DNA of 23,901 nucleotides from Saccoglossus kowalevskii (taxonomy: Eukaryota > Hemichordata > Enteropneusta > Harrimaniidae): positions 1-23,901 of the forward strand of contig NW_003149665.1 of NCBI RefSeq assembly GCF_000003605.2, in the 5' to 3' direction. Under the pieces are notes generated by a model. That model made no database searches. It saw nothing but the letters and a program-made list of their open reading frames with translations, and was not told the DNA's origin. The translations under genes were made by a program, and so were the position numbers. This document shows positions 1 through 23,484 of this stretch, one piece after another. Positions within the stretch are counted from its first letter, which is position 1; every line of letters begins with the position of its first letter.

Positions 1-60
1 TCATCATCTGTGCATGCTTTTATTGTCTGGATCATGAAACCTGCATCATGAGGAAAATAC
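1..60. repeat. Irregular first monomer
   Basis: The first marker monomer reads CATGAGGAAAATACC, where the six other marker monomers have CATGGGAAATACC, a net gain of two A residues. Bases 1-10 (TCATCATCTG) also depart from the usual CCCTCATCTG. The changes are confined to the first 60 bases. Confidence 0.7.
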
Positions 61-552
61 CACTCATCTTTGCATGCTTATATTGTCTGCATCATGAAAC
101 CTGCATCATGGGAGATACCCCTCATCTGTGCATGCTTCTATTGTCAGCATCATGAAACCTGCATCATGGGAGATACCACTCATCTCTGCATGCTTATATT
201 GTCTGCATCATGAAACCTGCATCATGGGAGATATCCCTCATTTGTGCATGCTTATATTGTCTGCATCATGAAACCTGCATCATGGGAGATACCACTCATC
301 TGTGCATGCTTCTATTGTCTGCATCATGAAACCTGCATCATGGGAGATATCCCTCATGTGTTCATGCTTTTATTGTCTGCATCATGAAACCTGTATCATG
401 AGAGATACCACTCATCTGTGCATGCTTCTATTGTCTGCATCATGAAACCTGCATCATGGGAGATATCCCTCATGTGTGCATGCTTCTATTGTCTACATCA
501 TGAAACCTGCATCATGGGAGATACCACTCATCTGTGCATGCTTCTATTGTCT

Positions 553-610
553 GCATCATGAAACCTGCATCATGGGAGATACCACTCATCTGTGCATGCT
601 TCTATTGTCT
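553..610 (+). repeat. Canonical B-type monomer (reference copy)
   Basis: This is a representative 58-bp unit. It contains two copies of GCATCATG exactly 14 bp apart (553 and 567), the palindrome GCATGC (a SphI site), TCATGA (a BspHI site) and no CpG. The second half carries the class-defining positions: ATACCAC/ATATCCC/ATACCCC, CTGTGC/GTGTTC/TTTGTGC and CTTCT/CTTAT/CTTTT. The choice of first base is arbitrary in a circularly permuted repeat. Confidence 0.95.
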
Positions 611-668
611 GCATCATGAAACCTGCATCATGGGAGATATCCCTCATGTGTTCATGCTTTTATTGTCT

Positions 669-730
669 GCATCTCCCATGAAACCTGTATCATGGGAGAT
701 ACCACTCATCTGTGCATGCTTCTATTGTCT
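669..730 (+). repeat. 62-bp monomer with TCCC insertion, copy 1 (perfect hairpin)
   Basis: The normal GCATCATGAAACC reads GCATCTCCCATGAAACC here; the extra TCCC is 674-677. ATCTCCCATG (671-680) is the exact reverse complement of CATGGGAGAT (691-700), with a 10-nt loop between. In ordinary monomers the same arms pair only as ATC/ATG against CAT/GAT, with GGGA bulged out. The insertion is exactly the complement of that bulge. Confidence 0.95.
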
Positions 731-962
731 ACATCATGAAACCTGCATCATGGGAGATACCACTCATCTGTGCATGCTTATATTGTCTGCATCATGAAAC
801 CTGCATCATGGGAGATATCCCTCATCTGTGCACGCTTCTATTGTCTGCATCATGAAACCTGCATCATGGGAGATACCACTCATCTATGCATGCTTATATT
901 GTCTGCATCATGAAACCTGCATCATGGGAGATACCACTCATCCGTGCATGCTTCTATTGTCT

Positions 963-1019
963 GCATCATGAAACTTGCATCATGGGAGATATCCTCATGT
1001 GTTCATGCGTTTATTGTCT
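963..1019 (+). repeat. 57-bp monomer (one C lost), copy 1
   Basis: GATATCCCTCATG is shortened to GATATCCTCATG. The monomer also carries ACTTGC and GCGTTT. The same ACTTGC/GCGTTT monomer without the deletion occurs at about 8,230, 13,160, 19,840, 22,335 and 23,785, so the deletion arose inside an existing subfamily. Confidence 0.9.
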
Positions 1020-1399
1020 GCATCATGAAACCTGTATCATGGGAGATACCACTCATCTGTGCATGCTTCTATTGTCTGCATCATGAAACCTGCATCATGG
1101 GAGATATCCCTCATCTGTGCATGCTTTTATTGTCTGGATCATGAAACCTGCATCATGGGAAATACCACTCATCTGTGCATGCTTCTATTGTCTGCATCAT
1201 GAAACCTGCATCATGGGAGATTCCCCTCATCTGTGCATGCTTCTATTGTCTGCATCATGAAACCTGCATCATGGGAGATACCACTCATCTCTGCATGCTT
1301 ATATTGTCTGCATCATGAAACCTGCATCATGGGAGATATCCCTCATTTGTGCATGCTTATATTGTCTGCATCATGAAACCTGCATCATGGGAGATACCA

Positions 1400-2268
1400 C
1401 TCATCTGTGCATGCTTCTATTGTCTGCATCATGAAACCTGCATCATGGGAGATATCCCTCATGTGTTCATGCTTTTATTGTCTGCATCATGAAACCTGCA
1501 TTATGGGAGATACCACTCATCTGTGCATGCTTCTATTGTCTGCATCATGAAACCTGCATCATGGGAGATATCCATCATGTGTTCATGCTTTTATTGTCTG
1601 CATCATGAAACCTGCATCATGGGAGATACCACTCATCTGTGCATGCTTCTATTGTCTGCATCATGAAACCTGCATCATGGGAGATATCCCTCATGTGTTC
1701 ATGCTTTTATTGTCTGCATCATGAAACCTGCATTATGGGAGATACCACTCATCTGTGCATGCTTATATTGTCTGCATCATGAAACCTGCATCATGGGAGA
1801 TATCCCTCATCTGTGCATGCTTCTATTGTCTGCATCATGAAACCTGCCTTATGGGAGATATCCCTCATGTGTTCATGCTTTTATTGTCTGCATCATGAAA
1901 CCTGCATCATGGGAGATACCACTCATCTGTGCATGCTTCTATTGTCTGCATCATGAAACCTGCATCATGGGAGATATCCCTCATGTGTTCATGCTTTTAT
2001 TGTCTGCATCATGAAACCTGCATTATGGGAGATACCACTCATCTGTGCATGCTTTTATTGTCTGCATCATGAAACCTGTATCATGGGAGATACCACTCAT
2101 CTGTGCATGCTTATATTGTCTGCATCATGAAACCTGCATCATGGGAGATACCACTCATATGTGCATGCTTATATTGTCTGCATCATGAAACCTGCATCAT
2201 GGGAGATACCACTCATCTGTGCATGCTTTTATTGTCTGCATCATGAAACCTGCATCATGGGAGATACC
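1400..2268. repeat. 869-bp block shared with 20,095-20,963
   Basis: Matches at an offset of 18,695 bp over 15 monomers at every position I compared. The block holds CCATCATG (about 1,571), GCCTTA (1,846) and CATATG (about 2,156). To the right, this copy continues with CCGTGC, while the 20.9-kb copy continues with an ATACCCC/GTGTTC monomer. Confidence 0.85.
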
Positions 2269-2731
2269 ACTCATCCGTGCATGCTTCTATTGTCTGCATC
2301 ATGAAACCTGCATCATGGGAGATACCACTCATATGTGCATGCTTTTATTGTCTGCATCATGAAACCTGCATCATGGGAGATACCACTCATCTGTGCATGC
2401 TTCTATTGTCTGCATCATGAAACCTGCATCATGGGAGATATCACTCATGTGTTCATGCTTTTATTGTCTGCATCATGAAACCTGCATTATGGGAGATACC
2501 ACTCATCTGTGCATGCTTATGTTGTCTGCATCATGAAACCTGCATTATGGGAGATATCCCTCATGTGTTCATGCTTTTATTGTCTGCATCATGAAACCTG
2601 CATTATGGGAGATACCACTCATCTGTGCATGCTTCTATTGTCTGCATCATGAAACCTGCATCATGGGAGATATCCCTCATGTGTTCATGCTTATATTGTC
2701 TGCATCATGAAACCTGCATCATGGGAGATAC

Positions 2732-4122
2732 CCCTCATGTGTTCATGCTTATATTGTCTGCATCATGAAACCTGCATCATGGGAGATACCCCTCATGTGT
2801 TCATGCTTATATTGTCTGCATCATGAAACCTGCATCATGGGAGATATCCCTCATCTGTGCATGCTTCTATTGTCTGCATCATGAAACCTGCATCATGGGA
2901 GATATCCCTCATGTGTTCATGCTTTTATTGTCTGCATCATGAAACCTGCATTATGGGAGATACCACTCATCTGTGCATGCTTCTATTGTCTGCATCATGA
3001 AACCTGCATCATGGGAGATACCACTCATCTATGCATGCTTTTATTGTCTGCATCATGAAACCTGCATCATGGGAGATACCCCTCATCTGTGCATGCTTGT
3101 ATTGTCTGCATCATGAAACCTGCATCATGGGAGATACCACTCATCTCTGCATGCTTCTATTGTCTGCATCATGAAACCTGCATCATGGGAGATATCCCTC
3201 ATGTGTGCATGCTTCTATTGTCTGCATCATGAAACCTGCATCACGGGAGATATCCCTCATGTGTGCATGCTTCTATTGTCTACATCATGAAACCTGCATC
3301 ATGGGAGATACCACTCATCTGTGCATGCTTCTATTGTCTGCATCATGAAACCTGCATCATGGGAGATACCACTCATCTGTGCATGCTTCTACTGTCTGCA
3401 TCATGAAACCTGCATCATGGGAGATATCCCTCATGTGTTCATGCTTTTATTGTCTGCATCATGAAACCTGTATCATGGGAGATACCACTCATCTGTGCAT
3501 GCTTCTATTGTCTACATCATGAAACCTGCATCATGGGAGATACCACTCATCTGTGCATGCTTATATTGTCTGCATCATGAAACCTGCATCATGGGAGATA
3601 TCCCTCATCTGTGCATGCTTTTATTGTCTGCATCATGAAACCTGTATCATGGGAGATACCACTCATCTGTGCATGCTTCTATTGTCTGCATCATGAAACC
3701 TGCATCATGGGAGATACCACTCATCTGTGCATGCTTATATTGTCTGCATCATGAAACCTGTATCATGGGAGATACCACTCATCTGTGCATGCTTCTATTG
3801 TCTGCATCATGAAACCTGCATCATGGGAGATATCCCTCATGTGTTCATGCTTTTATTGTCTGCATCATGAAACCTGCAACATGGGAGATACCACTCATCT
3901 GTGCATGCTTCTATTGTCTGCATCATGAAACCTGCATCATGGGAGATACCACTCATCTGTGCATGCTTATGTTGACTGCATTATGAAACCTGCATCATGG
4001 GAGATATCCCTCATGTGTTCATGCTTATATTGTCTGCATCATGAAACCTGCATCATGGGAGATACCCCTCATGTGTTCATGCTTATATTGTCTGCATCAT
4101 GAAACCTGCATCATGGGAGATA
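2732..4122. repeat. 1,391-bp duplicated block, copy 1
   Basis: A line-by-line comparison with 15,217-16,607 (offset 12,485) showed no difference. Shared private markers include CTTGT (3,096), TCACGGG (3,241), CTACTG (about 3,390), GCAACATG (3,876) and CTTATGTTGAC (3,966). The first mismatches outside are C/T at 2,731/15,216 and C/T at 4,123/16,608. Confidence 0.92.
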
Positions 4123-4876: not shown

Positions 4877-6819
4877 CCACTCATCTATGCATGCATTTAT
4901 TGTCTGCATCATGAAACCTGCATCATGGGAGATACCCCTCATCTGTGCATGCTTGTATTGTCTGCATCATGAAACCTGCATCATGGGAGATACCACTCAT
5001 CTCTGCATGCTTATATTGTCTGCATCATGAAACCTGCATCATGGGAGATATCCCTCATCTGTGCATGCTTATATTGTCTGCATCATGAAACCTGCATCAT
5101 GGGAGATACCACTCATCTGTGCATGCTTCTATTGTCTGCATCATGAAACCTGCATCATGGGAGATATCCCTCACGTGTTCATGCTTTTATTGTCTGCATC
5201 ATGAAACCTGTATCATGGGAGATACCACTCATCTGTGCATGCTTCTATTGTCTGCATCATGAAACCTGCATCATGGGAGATATCCCTCATGTGTGCATGC
5301 TTCTATTGTCTACATCATGAAACCTGCATCATGGGAGATACCACTCATCTGTGCATGCTTCTATTGTCTGCATCATGAAACCTGCATCATGGGAGATACC
5401 ACTCATCTGTGCATGCTTCTATTGTCTGCATCATGAAACCTGCATCATGGGAGATATCCCTCATGTGTTCATGCTTTTATTGTCTGCATCATGAAACCTG
5501 TATCATGGGAGATACCACTCATCTGTGCATGCTTCTATTGTCTACATCATGAAACCTGCATCATGGGAGATACCACTCATCTGTGCATGCTTATATTGTC
5601 TGCATCATGAAACCTGCATCATGGGAGATATCCCTCATCTGTGCATGCTTCTATTGTCTGCATCATGAAACCTGCATCATGGGAGATACCACTCATCTGT
5701 GCATGCTTATATTGTCTGCATCATGAAACCTGCATCATGGGAGATACCACTCATCTGTGCATGCTTCTATTGTCTGCATCATGAAACCTGCATCATGGGA
5801 GATATCCCTCATGTGTTCATGCTTTTATTGTCTGCATCATGAAACCTGCAACATGGGAGATACCACTCATCTGTGCATGCTTCTATTGTCTGCATCATGA
5901 AACCTGCATCATGGGAGATACCACTCAACTGTGCATGCTTATGTTGTCTGCATTATGAAACCTGCATCATGGGAGATATCCCTCATGTGTTCATGCTTAT
6001 ATTGTCTGCATCATGAAACCTTCATCATGGGAGATACCCCTCATGTGTTCATGCTTATATTGTCTGCATCATGAAACCTGCATCATGGGAGATACCCCTC
6101 ATGTGTTCATGCTTATATTGTCTGCATCATGAAACCTGCATCATGGGAGATATCCCTCATCTGTGCATGCTTCTATTGTCTGCATCATGAAACCTGCATC
6201 ATGGGAGATATCCCTCATGTGTTCATGCTTTTATTGTCTGCATCATGAAACCTGCATTATGGGAGATACCCCTCATCTGTGCATGCTTCTATTGTCTGCA
6301 TCATGAAACCTGCATCATGGGAGATACCACTCATCTCTGCATGCTTATATTGTCTGCATCATGAAACCTGCATCATGGGAGATATCCCTCATCTGTGCAT
6401 GCTTATATTGTCTGCATCATGAAACCTGCATCATGGGAGATACCACTCATCTGTGCATGCTTCTATTGTCTGCATCATGAAACCTGCATCATGGGAGATA
6501 TCCCTCACGTGTTCATGCTTTTATTGTCTGCATCATGAAACCTGTATCATGGGAGATATCCCTCATGTGTTCATGCTTTTATTGTCTGCATCATGAAACC
6601 TGCATCATGGGAGATATCCCTCATGTGTGCATGCTTCTATTGTCTACATCATGAAACCTGCATCATGGGAGATACCACTCATCTGTGCATGCTTCGATTG
6701 TCTGCATCATGAAACCTGCATCATGGGAGATACCACTCATCTGTGCATGCTTCTATTGTCTGCATCATGAAACCTGCATCATGGGAGATATCCCTCATGT
6801 GTTCATGCTTTTATTGTCT

Positions 6820-6882
6820 GCATCATGAAACCTGTATCATGGGAGATACCACTCATCTGTGCATGCTTCTATTATATTGTCT
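6820..6882 (+). repeat. 63-bp monomer with 5-bp insertion, copy 1
   Basis: CTTCTATTGTCT reads CTTCTATTATATTGTCT here; one placement of the extra five bases is 6,874-6,878. The sequence can also be read as the start of a CTTCTA monomer joined to the TTATATTG end of a CTTAT monomer. That would make it a slightly misaligned exchange between two monomer classes instead of a simple insertion. Confidence 0.9.
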
Positions 6883-7556
6883 ACATCATGAAACCTGCAT
6901 CATGGGAGATACCACTCATCTGTGCATGCTTATATTGTCTGCATCATGAAACCTGCATCATGGGAGATATCCCTCATCTGTGCACGCTTCTATTGTCTGC
7001 ATCATGAAACCTGCATCATGGGAGATACCACTCATCTATGCATGCTTATATTGTCTGCATCATGAAACCTGCATCATGGGAGATACCACTCATCCGTGCA
7101 TGCTTCTATTGTCTGCATCATGAAACTTGCATCATGGGAGATATCCTCATGTGTTCATGCGTTTATTGTCTGCATCATGAAACCTGTATCATGGGAGATA
7201 CCACTCATCTGTGCATGCTTCTATTGTCTGCATCATGAAACCTGCATCATGGGAGATATCCCTCATCTGTGCATGCTTTTATTGTCTGGATCATGAAACC
7301 TGCATCATGGGAAATACCACTCATCTGTGCATGCTTATATTGTCTGCATCATGAAACCTGCATCATGGGAGATTCCCCTCATCTGTGCATGCTTCTATTG
7401 TCTGCATCATGAAACCTGCATCATGGGAGATACCACTCATCTCTGCATGCTTATATTGTCTGCATCATGAAACCTGCATCATGGGAGATATCCCTCATTT
7501 GTGCATGCTTATATTGTCTGCATCATGAAACCTGCATCATGGGAGATACCACTCAT
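6879..7556. repeat. 678-bp block identical to 10,830-11,507
   Basis: Identical at an offset of 3,951 bp. The left edge abuts the ATATT insertion of the 6,820 monomer, and the TCCC hairpin lies just left of the other copy. The right edge is C/A (CTGTGC against ATGTGC). The first 458 bp also match 727-1,184. Confidence 0.88.
7115..7171 (+). repeat. 57-bp monomer (one C lost), copy 2
   Basis: Same deletion and same linked variants as at 963-1,019, offset 6,152 bp, within a 458-bp block identical to 727-1,184. Confidence 0.9.
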
Positions 7557-8067
7557 CTGTGCATGCTTCTATTGTCTGCATCATGAAACCTGCATCATGG
7601 GAGATATCCCTCATGTGTTCATGCTTTTATTGTCTGCATCATGAAACCTGTATCATGAGAGATACCACTCATCTGTGCATGCTTCTATTGTCTGCATCAT
7701 GAAACCTGCATCATGGGAGATATCCCTCATGTGTGCATGCTTCTATTGTCTACATCATGAAACCTGCATCATGGGAGATACCACTCATCTGTGCATGCTT
7801 CTATTGTCTGCATCATGAAACCTGCATCATGGGAGATACCACTCATCTGTGCATGCTTCTATTGTCTGCATCATGAAACCTGCATCATGGGAGATATCCC
7901 TCATGTGTTCATGCTTTTATTGTCTGCATCTCCCATGAAACCTGTATCATGGGAGATACCACTCATCTGTGCATGCTTCTATTGTCTACATCATGAAACC
8001 TGCATCATGGGAGATACCACTCATCTGTGCATGCTTATATTGTCTGCATCATGAAACCTGCATCATG
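7404..8067. repeat. 664-bp block identical to 147-810
   Basis: Second copy of the 664-bp block. It diverges at 8,068, where the next monomer reads CATGAGAGATATCC. Confidence 0.88.
7926..7987 (+). repeat. 62-bp monomer with TCCC insertion, copy 2
   Basis: Same insertion (7,931-7,934) and same perfect hairpin (7,928-7,957) as copy 1, inside a block identical to 147-810. It is copied by array turnover and is not an independent mutation. Confidence 0.95.
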
Positions 8068-10713: not shown

Positions 10714-10771
10714 GCATCATGAAACCTGTATCATGGGAGATACCACTCATGTGTTCATGCTTTTATTGTCT
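10714..10771 (+). repeat. Hybrid monomer at a recombination junction
   Basis: This is the only monomer I found that joins ATACCACTCAT (B class) to GTGTTCATGCTTTT (A class). The left side continues the CATCAGGAAA block related to 8,900-9,050; the right side is the TCCC-insertion block. It reads as the crossover point between a B monomer and an A monomer in register. Confidence 0.75.
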
Positions 10772-10833
10772 GCATCTCCCATGAAACCTGTATCATGGGA
10801 GATACCACTCATCTGTGCATGCTTCTATTGTCT
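10772..10833 (+). repeat. 62-bp monomer with TCCC insertion, copy 3
   Basis: Same insertion (10,777-10,780) and hairpin (10,774-10,803). The upstream neighbour differs from the other three copies: it is a hybrid monomer (10,714-10,771), so this copy sits next to a recombination junction. Confidence 0.95.
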
Positions 10834-11507
10834 ACATCATGAAACCTGCATCATGGGAGATACCACTCATCTGTGCATGCTTATATTGTCTGCATCATGA
10901 AACCTGCATCATGGGAGATATCCCTCATCTGTGCACGCTTCTATTGTCTGCATCATGAAACCTGCATCATGGGAGATACCACTCATCTATGCATGCTTAT
11001 ATTGTCTGCATCATGAAACCTGCATCATGGGAGATACCACTCATCCGTGCATGCTTCTATTGTCTGCATCATGAAACTTGCATCATGGGAGATATCCTCA
11101 TGTGTTCATGCGTTTATTGTCTGCATCATGAAACCTGTATCATGGGAGATACCACTCATCTGTGCATGCTTCTATTGTCTGCATCATGAAACCTGCATCA
11201 TGGGAGATATCCCTCATCTGTGCATGCTTTTATTGTCTGGATCATGAAACCTGCATCATGGGAAATACCACTCATCTGTGCATGCTTATATTGTCTGCAT
11301 CATGAAACCTGCATCATGGGAGATTCCCCTCATCTGTGCATGCTTCTATTGTCTGCATCATGAAACCTGCATCATGGGAGATACCACTCATCTCTGCATG
11401 CTTATATTGTCTGCATCATGAAACCTGCATCATGGGAGATATCCCTCATTTGTGCATGCTTATATTGTCTGCATCATGAAACCTGCATCATGGGAGATAC
11501 CACTCAT
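10830..11507. repeat. 678-bp block identical to 6,879-7,556
   Basis: Second copy; it ends where segment 4 switches to the CATATG series. Confidence 0.88.
11066..11122 (+). repeat. 57-bp monomer (one C lost), copy 3
   Basis: Same deletion and linked variants, 3,951 bp after copy 2, within the 678-bp block 10,830-11,507 that is identical to 6,879-7,556. Confidence 0.9.
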
Positions 11508-14312: not shown

Positions 14313-14375
14313 GCATCATGAAACCTGTATCATGGGAGATACCACTCATCTGTGCATGCTTCTATTATATTGTCT
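14313..14375 (+). repeat. 63-bp monomer with 5-bp insertion, copy 2
   Basis: Identical 5-bp insertion (14,367-14,371), 7,493 bp downstream of copy 1. The surrounding blocks also share a TCACGTG variant at the same relative position (6,505 and 13,998), so the two are copies of one event. Confidence 0.9.
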
Positions 14376-15216: not shown

Positions 15217-16607
15217 CCCTCATGTGTTCATGCTTATATTGTCTGCATCATGAAACCTGCATCATGGGAGATACCCCTCATGTGTTCATGCTTATATTGT
15301 CTGCATCATGAAACCTGCATCATGGGAGATATCCCTCATCTGTGCATGCTTCTATTGTCTGCATCATGAAACCTGCATCATGGGAGATATCCCTCATGTG
15401 TTCATGCTTTTATTGTCTGCATCATGAAACCTGCATTATGGGAGATACCACTCATCTGTGCATGCTTCTATTGTCTGCATCATGAAACCTGCATCATGGG
15501 AGATACCACTCATCTATGCATGCTTTTATTGTCTGCATCATGAAACCTGCATCATGGGAGATACCCCTCATCTGTGCATGCTTGTATTGTCTGCATCATG
15601 AAACCTGCATCATGGGAGATACCACTCATCTCTGCATGCTTCTATTGTCTGCATCATGAAACCTGCATCATGGGAGATATCCCTCATGTGTGCATGCTTC
15701 TATTGTCTGCATCATGAAACCTGCATCACGGGAGATATCCCTCATGTGTGCATGCTTCTATTGTCTACATCATGAAACCTGCATCATGGGAGATACCACT
15801 CATCTGTGCATGCTTCTATTGTCTGCATCATGAAACCTGCATCATGGGAGATACCACTCATCTGTGCATGCTTCTACTGTCTGCATCATGAAACCTGCAT
15901 CATGGGAGATATCCCTCATGTGTTCATGCTTTTATTGTCTGCATCATGAAACCTGTATCATGGGAGATACCACTCATCTGTGCATGCTTCTATTGTCTAC
16001 ATCATGAAACCTGCATCATGGGAGATACCACTCATCTGTGCATGCTTATATTGTCTGCATCATGAAACCTGCATCATGGGAGATATCCCTCATCTGTGCA
16101 TGCTTTTATTGTCTGCATCATGAAACCTGTATCATGGGAGATACCACTCATCTGTGCATGCTTCTATTGTCTGCATCATGAAACCTGCATCATGGGAGAT
16201 ACCACTCATCTGTGCATGCTTATATTGTCTGCATCATGAAACCTGTATCATGGGAGATACCACTCATCTGTGCATGCTTCTATTGTCTGCATCATGAAAC
16301 CTGCATCATGGGAGATATCCCTCATGTGTTCATGCTTTTATTGTCTGCATCATGAAACCTGCAACATGGGAGATACCACTCATCTGTGCATGCTTCTATT
16401 GTCTGCATCATGAAACCTGCATCATGGGAGATACCACTCATCTGTGCATGCTTATGTTGACTGCATTATGAAACCTGCATCATGGGAGATATCCCTCATG
16501 TGTTCATGCTTATATTGTCTGCATCATGAAACCTGCATCATGGGAGATACCCCTCATGTGTTCATGCTTATATTGTCTGCATCATGAAACCTGCATCATG
16601 GGAGATA
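15217..16607. repeat. 1,391-bp duplicated block, copy 2
   Basis: Identical by eye to 2,732-4,122, covering 24 monomers. Perfect identity over this length between loci 12.5 kb apart points to a recent duplication or conversion, since neighbouring monomers of the same class differ at several positions. Confidence 0.92.
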
Positions 16608-16674: not shown

Positions 16675-18541
16675 TGTGCATGCTTCTATTGTCTGCATCA
16701 TGAAACCTGCATCATGGGAGATATCCCTCATGTGTTCATGCTTTTATTGTCTGCATCATGAAACCTGCATTATGGGAGATACCACTCATCTGTGCATGCT
16801 TTTATTGTCTGCATCATGAAACCTGTATCATGGGAGATACCACTCATCTGTGCATGCTTATATTGTCTGCATCATGAAACCTGCATCATGGGAGATACCA
16901 CTCATATGTGCATGCTTATATTGTCTGCATCATGAAACCTGCATCATGGGAGATACCACTCATCTGTGCATGCTTTTATTGTCTGCATCATGAAACCGGC
17001 ATCATGGGAGATACCCCTCATGTGTTCATGCTTCTATTGTCTGCATCATGAAACCTGCATCATGGGAGATACCACTCATATGTGCATGCTTTTATTGTCT
17101 GCATCATGAAACCTGCATCATGGGAGATACCACTCATCTGTGCATGCTTCTATTGTCTGCATCATGAAACCTGCATCATGGGAGATATCACTCATGTGTT
17201 CATGCTTTTATTGTCTGCATCATGAAACCTGCATTATGGGAGATACCACTCATCTGTGCATGCTTATGTTGTCTGCATCATGAAACCTGCATTATGGGAG
17301 ATATCCCTCATGTGTTCATGCTTTTATTGTCTGCATCATGAAACCTGCATTATGGGAGATACCACTCATCTGTGCATGCTTCTATTGTCTGCATCATGAA
17401 ACCTGCATCATGGGAGATATCCCTCATGTGTTCATGCTTATATTGTCTGCATCATGAAACCTGCATCATGGGAGATACCCCTCATTTGTTCATGCTTATA
17501 TTGTCTGCGTCATGAAACCTGCATTATGGGAGATATCCCTCATCTGTGCATGCTTCTATTGTCTGCATCATGAAACCTGCATCATGGGAGATATCCCTCA
17601 TGTGTTCATGCTTTTATTGTCTGCATCATGAAACCTGCATTATGGGAGATACCACTCATCTGTGCATGCTTTTATTGTCTGCATCATGAAACCTGTATCA
17701 TGGGAGATACCACTCATCTGTGCATGCTTATATTGTCTGCATCATGAAACCTGCATCATGGGAGATACCACTCATATGTGCATGCTTATATTGTCTGCAT
17801 CATGAAACCTGCATCATGGGAGATACCACTCATCTGTGCATGCTTTTATTGTCTGCATCATGAAACCGGCATCATGGGAGATACCCCTCATGTGTTCATG
17901 CTTCTATTGTCTGCATCATGAAACCTGCATCATGGGAGATACCACTCATATGTGCATGCTTTTATTGTCTGCATCATGAAACCTGCATCATGGGAGATAC
18001 CACTCATCTGTGCATGCTTCTATTGTCTGCATCATGAAACCTGCATCATGGGAGATATCACTCATGTGTTCATGCTTTTATTGTCTGCATCATGAAACCT
18101 GCATTATGGGAGATACCACTCATCTGTGCATGCTTATGTTGTCTGCATCATGAAACCTGCATTATGGGAGATATCCCTCATGTGTTCATGCTTTTATTGT
18201 CTGCATCATGAAACCTGCATTATGGGAGATACCACTCATCTGTGCATGCTTCTATTGTCTGCATCATGAAACCTGCATCATGGGAGATATCCCTCATGTG
18301 TTCATGCTTATATTGTCTGCATCATGAAACCTGCATCATGGGAGATACCCCTCATTTGTTCATGCTTATATTGTCTGCGTCATGAAACCTGCATTATGGG
18401 AGATATCCCTCATCTGTGCATGCTTCTATTGTCTGCATCATGAAACCTGCATCATGGGAGATATCCCTCATGTGTTCATGCTTTTATTGTCTGCATCATG
18501 AAACCTGCATTATGGGAGATACCACTCATCTGTGCATGCTT
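16675..18541. repeat. 870-bp (15-monomer) perfect tandem duplication
   Basis: Every line from 16,675 to 17,671 matches the sequence 870 bp downstream without a difference, giving about 2.15 copies of a 15-monomer unit. Private markers occur in both units: ACCGGC (16,996 and 17,866), and TTTGTT followed by TGCGTC (about 17,485-17,510 and 18,355-18,380). Similarity fails at G16,674/C17,544 on the left and T17,671/C18,541-18,542 on the right. Confidence 0.92.
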
Positions 18542-19536: not shown

Positions 19537-19598
19537 GCATCTCCCATGAAACCTGTATCATGGGAGATACCACTCATCTGTGCATGCTTCTATTGTCT
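19537..19598 (+). repeat. 62-bp monomer with TCCC insertion, copy 4
   Basis: Same insertion (19,542-19,545) and hairpin (19,539-19,568). The following segment has lost the corresponding monomer in a seven-unit deletion. Confidence 0.95.
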
Positions 19599-19928: not shown

Positions 19929-20990
19929 TGCATGCTTCTATTGTCTGCATCATGAAACCTGCATCATGGGAGATATCCCTCATTTGTGCATGCTTATGTT
20001 GTCTGCATCATGAAACCTGCATCATGGGAGATACCCCTCATGTGTTCATGCTTATATTGTCTGCATCATGAAACCTGCATCATGGGAGATATCCCTCATC
20101 TGTGCATGCTTCTATTGTCTGCATCATGAAACCTGCATCATGGGAGATATCCCTCATGTGTTCATGCTTTTATTGTCTGCATCATGAAACCTGCATTATG
20201 GGAGATACCACTCATCTGTGCATGCTTCTATTGTCTGCATCATGAAACCTGCATCATGGGAGATATCCATCATGTGTTCATGCTTTTATTGTCTGCATCA
20301 TGAAACCTGCATCATGGGAGATACCACTCATCTGTGCATGCTTCTATTGTCTGCATCATGAAACCTGCATCATGGGAGATATCCCTCATGTGTTCATGCT
20401 TTTATTGTCTGCATCATGAAACCTGCATTATGGGAGATACCACTCATCTGTGCATGCTTATATTGTCTGCATCATGAAACCTGCATCATGGGAGATATCC
20501 CTCATCTGTGCATGCTTCTATTGTCTGCATCATGAAACCTGCCTTATGGGAGATATCCCTCATGTGTTCATGCTTTTATTGTCTGCATCATGAAACCTGC
20601 ATCATGGGAGATACCACTCATCTGTGCATGCTTCTATTGTCTGCATCATGAAACCTGCATCATGGGAGATATCCCTCATGTGTTCATGCTTTTATTGTCT
20701 GCATCATGAAACCTGCATTATGGGAGATACCACTCATCTGTGCATGCTTTTATTGTCTGCATCATGAAACCTGTATCATGGGAGATACCACTCATCTGTG
20801 CATGCTTATATTGTCTGCATCATGAAACCTGCATCATGGGAGATACCACTCATATGTGCATGCTTATATTGTCTGCATCATGAAACCTGCATCATGGGAG
20901 ATACCACTCATCTGTGCATGCTTTTATTGTCTGCATCATGAAACCTGCATCATGGGAGATACCCCTCATGTGTTCATGCTTCTATTGTCT
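19929..20990. repeat. 1,062-bp duplicated block, copy 1
   Basis: Identical by eye to 22,423-23,484 at an offset of 2,494 bp (43 monomers). It includes the CCATCATG, GCCTTATG and CATATG markers. With one base difference at 19,928 (A against G), the similarity extends left to 19,812. Confidence 0.92.
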
Positions 20991-22422: not shown

Positions 22423-23484
22423 TGCATGCTTCTATTGTCTGCATCATGAAACCTGCATCATGGGAGATATCCCTCATTTGTGCATGCTTATGTTGTCTGC
22501 ATCATGAAACCTGCATCATGGGAGATACCCCTCATGTGTTCATGCTTATATTGTCTGCATCATGAAACCTGCATCATGGGAGATATCCCTCATCTGTGCA
22601 TGCTTCTATTGTCTGCATCATGAAACCTGCATCATGGGAGATATCCCTCATGTGTTCATGCTTTTATTGTCTGCATCATGAAACCTGCATTATGGGAGAT
22701 ACCACTCATCTGTGCATGCTTCTATTGTCTGCATCATGAAACCTGCATCATGGGAGATATCCATCATGTGTTCATGCTTTTATTGTCTGCATCATGAAAC
22801 CTGCATCATGGGAGATACCACTCATCTGTGCATGCTTCTATTGTCTGCATCATGAAACCTGCATCATGGGAGATATCCCTCATGTGTTCATGCTTTTATT
22901 GTCTGCATCATGAAACCTGCATTATGGGAGATACCACTCATCTGTGCATGCTTATATTGTCTGCATCATGAAACCTGCATCATGGGAGATATCCCTCATC
23001 TGTGCATGCTTCTATTGTCTGCATCATGAAACCTGCCTTATGGGAGATATCCCTCATGTGTTCATGCTTTTATTGTCTGCATCATGAAACCTGCATCATG
23101 GGAGATACCACTCATCTGTGCATGCTTCTATTGTCTGCATCATGAAACCTGCATCATGGGAGATATCCCTCATGTGTTCATGCTTTTATTGTCTGCATCA
23201 TGAAACCTGCATTATGGGAGATACCACTCATCTGTGCATGCTTTTATTGTCTGCATCATGAAACCTGTATCATGGGAGATACCACTCATCTGTGCATGCT
23301 TATATTGTCTGCATCATGAAACCTGCATCATGGGAGATACCACTCATATGTGCATGCTTATATTGTCTGCATCATGAAACCTGCATCATGGGAGATACCA
23401 CTCATCTGTGCATGCTTTTATTGTCTGCATCATGAAACCTGCATCATGGGAGATACCCCTCATGTGTTCATGCTTCTATTGTCT
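22423..23484. repeat. 1,062-bp duplicated block, copy 2
   Basis: Identical by eye to 19,929-20,990. The right edge (23,485, CTACATC instead of CTGCATC) coincides with the jump to the block copied from 19,557 onward. Confidence 0.92.

Follow-up and report, generated by a model that had tools for sequence, protein, structure and literature searches.

The window (the whole stretch of 23,901 nucleotides of Saccoglossus kowalevskii DNA analysed here) is occupied from end to end by a single 58-bp satellite array whose units follow one another head-to-tail:

4 to 23901, + strand: 58-bp tandem (satellite) array; Tandem Repeats Finder gives period 58, 411.6 copies and 92% matches.

Wrap-around alignment of the window to the 58-bp consensus resolved 413 units, counting the fragment at each end, with few indels, of about five kinds. 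The array is called a satellite on the ground that 411.6 copies of 58 bp form a long head-to-tail run of similar non-coding units; a single open reading frame of at least 100 aa (105 aa) is found in the window. Searches for known elements and relatives were negative within their scope: the window has no Rfam match at the gathering threshold, window positions 1-3000 used as a query had no match in plasmids, no relative was found in viral contigs or prokaryote genome contigs, and neither of two 27-base strings of the unit occurred in the papers searched.

When lags of 1 to 204 units were examined, no regular higher-order repeat stood out; the best lag, 158 units, gave 11.9% identical units vs a mean of 4.8%. 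Exact runs of at least 500 bp are present at 13 lags, and three exact duplications inside the array measure 1391 bp (2732-4122 and 15217-16607), 1062 bp (19929-20990 and 22423-23484) and 997 bp (16675-17671 and 17545-18541, the copies overlapping at a 15-unit lag). The base counts of the window are skewed, with 7889 T vs 5741 A and 5757 C vs 4514 G, as is expected because the array has a single orientation. The bases on the two sides of a unit boundary go together: at 68 junctions a unit with TC in columns 55/57 precedes one with G-T-T in columns 5/9/17, and at 6 junctions the G-T-T comes after CA in columns 55/57. An imperfect palindrome distinct from the one treated below, CATGGGA-GATATC-CCTCATG, lies at unit boundaries (for example at 339-358) and arises where a unit ending in ATATCCC precedes a unit starting with TCATG. 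Finally, the first full unit has a cluster of changes at 49-55, reading CATGAGGAAAATACC instead of CATGGGAGATACC, and these seven bases have no other occurrence in the window on either strand.

Four of the 413 units carry an extra 4 nt in the wrap-around alignment, the placement being ambiguous between TCCC and, equivalently, CTCC. A search of the window, in line with a check that the earlier note had suggested, found the diagnostic string ATCTCCCATG at four + strand sites of the window only (671, 7928, 10774 and 19539), and these mark four perfect hairpins:

671 to 700, + strand: perfect hairpin copy 1, with arms 671-681 and 690-700, loop 682-689 and TCCC at 674-677 (or CTCC at 673-676).
7928 to 7957, + strand: perfect hairpin copy 2, in a unit of the same type as copy 1.
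10774 to 10803, + strand: perfect hairpin copy 3, with the unit type and right flank of copy 1 and a left flank that differs from 32 bases before the insert.
19539 to 19568, + strand: perfect hairpin copy 4, in a unit of the same type as copy 1.

The ancestral arms are ATC-ATGA and TCAT-GGGA-GAT, and the imperfect form ATC-ATGA N8 TCAT-GGGA-GAT is found exactly at 325 places, the filled form at 4. The gain of TCCC, the exact complement of the unpaired GGGA, had been claimed for these four monomers from the sequence alone and proved correct. The sites given for them (669, 7,926, 10,772 and 19,537) were also right, with the hairpins starting two bases later; the stem was rightly called perfect and its dimensions needed correction, since the filled hairpin, ATCTCCCATGA-AACCTGTA-TCATGGGAGAT, has a stem of 11 bp, not 10, and a loop (AACCTGTA) of 8 nt, not 10. 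Perfect stems of at least 9 bp with a loop of 3-40 nt number eight in the window and all of them involve the four inserts, each insert pairing both with the arm of its own unit and with the arm of the preceding unit; no such stem exists in the window without them. The predicted DNA fold of an empty unit (5479-5519) has an energy of -3.2 kcal/mol on the + strand and -2.1 kcal/mol on the - strand, vs -10.5 and -10.9 kcal/mol for the filled unit at 662-706, and on neither strand did any of 200 shuffles reach the stability of the filled unit.

The array also retains the allele from before the event. Fourteen units share the unit haplotype of the carriers, 4 of them filled and 10 empty, and the 10 empty ones are identical to the carriers over all 58 bases. 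Over its flanks, the closest of them is the following:

5488 to 5513, + strand: closest empty (pre-insertion) allele, the carriers' 58-bp unit without TCCC.

In a comparison of 18 rows drawn from the closest empty units rather than from all 413, this allele differed at 5 positions from copy 1, at 4 from copy 2 and at 5 from copy 4 over about 590 flanking bases, and copies 1, 2 and 4 differed among themselves at 2 to 3 of about 590 flanking positions; copy 3 differed from everything at 23 positions or more, because of its left flank. Given 4 filled units, 325 imperfect forms and 10 identical empty units, insertion is the parsimonious direction of change.

Quasipalindrome correction by template switching, the process that the earlier note had named, is the best-supported explanation of the insert: the new bases are the exact complement of GGGA, no longer match exists on the same strand, and the array holds alleles that predate the event. 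Our full reading, that such a switch took place in one unit of the array and that its product was then copied to four places by duplication and exchange, is very probably correct. In the models proposed for E. coli and yeast, a nascent strand that has stalled either folds back or moves over to the sister template, and the partner arm is copied before the strand returns (PMC7202029, PMC3820800). In the satellite, the 3' end TCATG would fold back during minus-strand synthesis and pair with CATGA of the just-made arm, leaving an 8-nt loop; the polymerase would then add GGGA by copying what was left unpaired in its own strand and would rejoin the normal template at the common GAT / ATC, whereupon the plus strand would gain TCCC and the stem would become perfect. 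Were it instead the plus strand that switched, to the sister template, the product would be identical and the two routes indistinguishable; what we say of the strand and of the timing in replication is what we infer. On either route the switch would be primed by 5 bp (TCATG/CATGA), four bases would be copied and the return would go through ATC/GAT. The empty unit has short complementarity on both sides, TCATG/CATGA (5 bp) towards the loop and ATC/GAT (3 bp) towards the outside, and the 5-bp stem is present in its predicted fold. Because the mismatched bases just outside the stem are unchanged, the copied tract would have measured 4 to 11 nt.

The flanks of the insert bear on its origin and spread. 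Two exact duplications run through it:

147 to 810, + strand: 664-bp block with copy 1, repeated exactly at 7404-8067 with copy 2.
643 to 1184, + strand: 542-bp block with copy 1, repeated exactly at 10746-11287 with copy 3.

By ungapped count, the left flank of copy 1 matches that of copy 2 for 527 bases vs 272 for the best empty unit; to the right, the best empty unit matches copy 1 for 155 bases, an ungapped figure that misses a gapped match at the empty unit 6822. There, once a TATTA is skipped, the right flank equals that of copy 1 for 507 bases, the same length over which copy 3 matches copy 1, and that of copy 3 for 727 bases. TATTA is a 5-nt insertion present in two units, at 6870-6874 and 14363-14367 (CTTCTATTG to CTTCTATTATATTG), and nowhere else in the window; the sequence bearing it resembles a join of the CTTCTATT and CTTATATTG unit types. 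The two empty units concerned, 6822 and 14315, have TATTA in common and differ in their right flanks, that of 14315 being of the empty type. The significance of the flank sharing was assessed by permutation over all choices of four among the 14 same-type units, the observed choice included: with TATTA skipped, 24, 7 and 48 of 1001 choices reached the carriers' sharing on three measures, and with TATTA not skipped, 5, 4 and 22 of 1001 did. The support from this permutation is consequently only moderate once TATTA is skipped.

The tree of flanking monomers that had been proposed as a check on a single origin came out differently on the two sides. In the left-flank tree, which like the right-flank tree was built on 15 rows chosen from the closest empty units rather than all 413 and left out 14315 and 14842, copies 1, 2 and 4 group together (87/85, not a starred branch, as its support is short of the tool's criterion), copy 3 falls with the empty units 3458 and 15943 (81/86), and the empty unit 6822 groups with the empty unit 5488 (88/75). 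In the right-flank tree, the empty units 6822 and 23487 fall among the carriers and a single clade of the four TCCC carriers is rejected (p-AU 0.0123). A comparison of site patterns over 11 rows, covering right-side sites to +312 only, showed that +266 C and +298 T are common to all four carriers, 6822 and 23487. The unit 23487 has a different left flank, and copy 3 directly follows an empty unit of the carriers' type at 10716.

One origin followed by spread by exchange within the array appears likely from these comparisons, though not proven. It is likely because the exact 664-bp and 542-bp duplications carry the insert; it is not proven because 6822 shares the right flank and the right-flank tree rejects a TCCC clade. 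The earlier note had reached the same view by another road, reasoning that all four copies share a TGTATC loop side, and this reason is too weak, since the T is present in 41 units and the insert is absent from 10 that are full 58-bp matches. TATTA would tag an exchange at 6822, and an exchange of the right flank after the insertion would fit the pattern of 6822 and 23487 with no second origin; alternatively, the insert may have been lost from 6822. We infer a single origin, and likewise the number of exchange events, with this reservation. The rival that fares best, a recurrent correction in which similar units gained the insert at one site on separate occasions, is improbable. The imperfect form at 325 places would offer it the same substrate each time, and the differing left flank of copy 3, the rejection of one clade on the right and the right flank that 6822 shares with copies 1 and 3 are all in its favor. 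However, all four inserts occur in one unit haplotype that is common to 14 units, the exact blocks pass through the insert in copies 1 and 3 (542 bp) and in copies 1 and 2 (664 bp), and 6822 and 23487, the two empty units responsible for breaking the clade, carry left flanks that are of the empty type or different, as exchange predicts.

Does the insert come from the opposite strand? The insert and its flanks match the opposite strand over 11 nt (ATCTCCCATGA, 340 sites), whereas the match on the same strand is of 4 nt only, the insert itself; nowhere in the window does a match on that strand reach a single base beyond the insert. The new bases exactly complement those left unpaired in the partner arm, and the window offers no longer source for them on the same strand. 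As only four bases are new, complementarity by itself carries limited weight, and Monttinen and Loytynoja warn that short reverse-complement matches have little statistical power (PMC8794818). We considered every distinct 4-nt insertion into an empty unit: 2 of 11,200 would create a local perfect stem of at least 11 bp, and 22 of 11,200 would match the opposite strand, at any place in the array, over 11 nt or more. An ordinary random insertion of 4 nt, by end joining or as polymerase filler, that matched the partner arm by luck is accordingly very unlikely. Four bases are short, and the masked array has 154 same-strand occurrences of TCCC; against this, the local stem arises in so few of the possible insertions that the chance, after allowing for the about five indel kinds of the array, is about 0.001.

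Marginally less probable still is an origin on the same strand, in which slippage, unequal crossover or a junction filler would have brought in TCCC from the ATATCCCTCATG boundary found in another unit. Boundaries reading ATATCCC, with T in column 55 and C in column 57, are common in the array, but the longest same-strand match in the window ends at 4 nt with no flanking base covered. Same-strand copying, slippage and chance insertion were all disfavored on this match and on the 2 of 11,200 and 22 of 11,200 counts. Other traces of template switching were sought in the array: an opposite-strand source was lacking for all 14 of the clustered substitution pairs tested in rare units, and the 325 imperfect copies were accompanied by no other type of corrected unit.

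A more active role for the hairpin was also considered. If the perfected hairpin promoted exchange or duplication, for example by fork stalling, the TCCC allele would spread and recombine more than its empty siblings; we regard this as very unlikely. There are two hints of it: copy 3 has its left-flank change no more than 32 bases from the insert, and copy 3 and the empty unit 6822 have 727 bases in common to the right, yet only copy 3 has the insert and their left flanks diverge from 31 bases outward; against it, the empty pair 3458/15943 is an equally clean and longer duplication with no hairpin. Hairpins are prone to deletion, and on that account one might imagine a perfect ancestral hairpin that stem deletions stripped of TCCC in the other units. 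The absence of TCCC from all but 4 of 413 units, in many haplotypes, would then have to be the derived state, reached through the same exact loss again and again or through a sweep that was nearly complete, and the idea was rejected on these counts as the least credible of the explanations.

The conversion of a quasi-palindrome into a perfect one by template switching is known in E. coli and yeast (PMC7202029, PMC3820800). At the lacZ QP5/QP6 sites and the thyA hotspot of E. coli and at LYS2 of yeast, as in the satellite, the partner arm is copied and an imperfect repeat is perfected, and the yeast work includes the insertion of a T complementary to a base that interrupts the other arm, much like the satellite insert (PMC7202029, PMC3820800). 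Those cases concern reporter genes under selection, the lacZ reporters scoring the removal of a 4-bp frameshift, whereas the satellite shows a gain of 4 nt in natural non-coding DNA. The nearest published parallel that we found is in insect rRNA genes (PMC8794818, Fig. 2E-F), where a template-switch insertion likewise occurred in a multicopy family and where a mismatch with the phylogeny was attributed to recombination among copies, as proposed for the array; the rRNA is a functional gene that was compared along a phylogeny, and the satellite case plays out within one array. The short-range template switches described in great apes belong to the same class of mutation (PMC7954356). That study calls quasipalindrome-to-palindrome conversion the hallmark of the traditional prokaryotic event, finds many such conversions non-significant by its own method and requires an alternate template that is not masked by RepeatMasker (PMC7954356); from this last rule, arrays like the 58-bp satellite are probably out of its reach. 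In the literature on template switching and repeats, no report of a quasipalindrome correction in a satellite was evident from titles and the opening of abstracts, which is weak evidence of absence.

The class of mutation is already known from textbooks, and the satellite insert is a further example of it. Corrections of this kind are hard to prove in natural genomes because few bases change; in the satellite, the direction and the exact change are clear because the array keeps many pre-event copies, some of them identical over 58 bases. Satellites with a built-in imperfect hairpin could act as natural counters of template-switch mutation, the reading of this counter being one retained kind of corrected unit vs 325 uncorrected copies. 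What distinguishes the satellite from the E. coli, yeast, insect and great ape cases is that the alleles from before and after the event stand side by side in one array.
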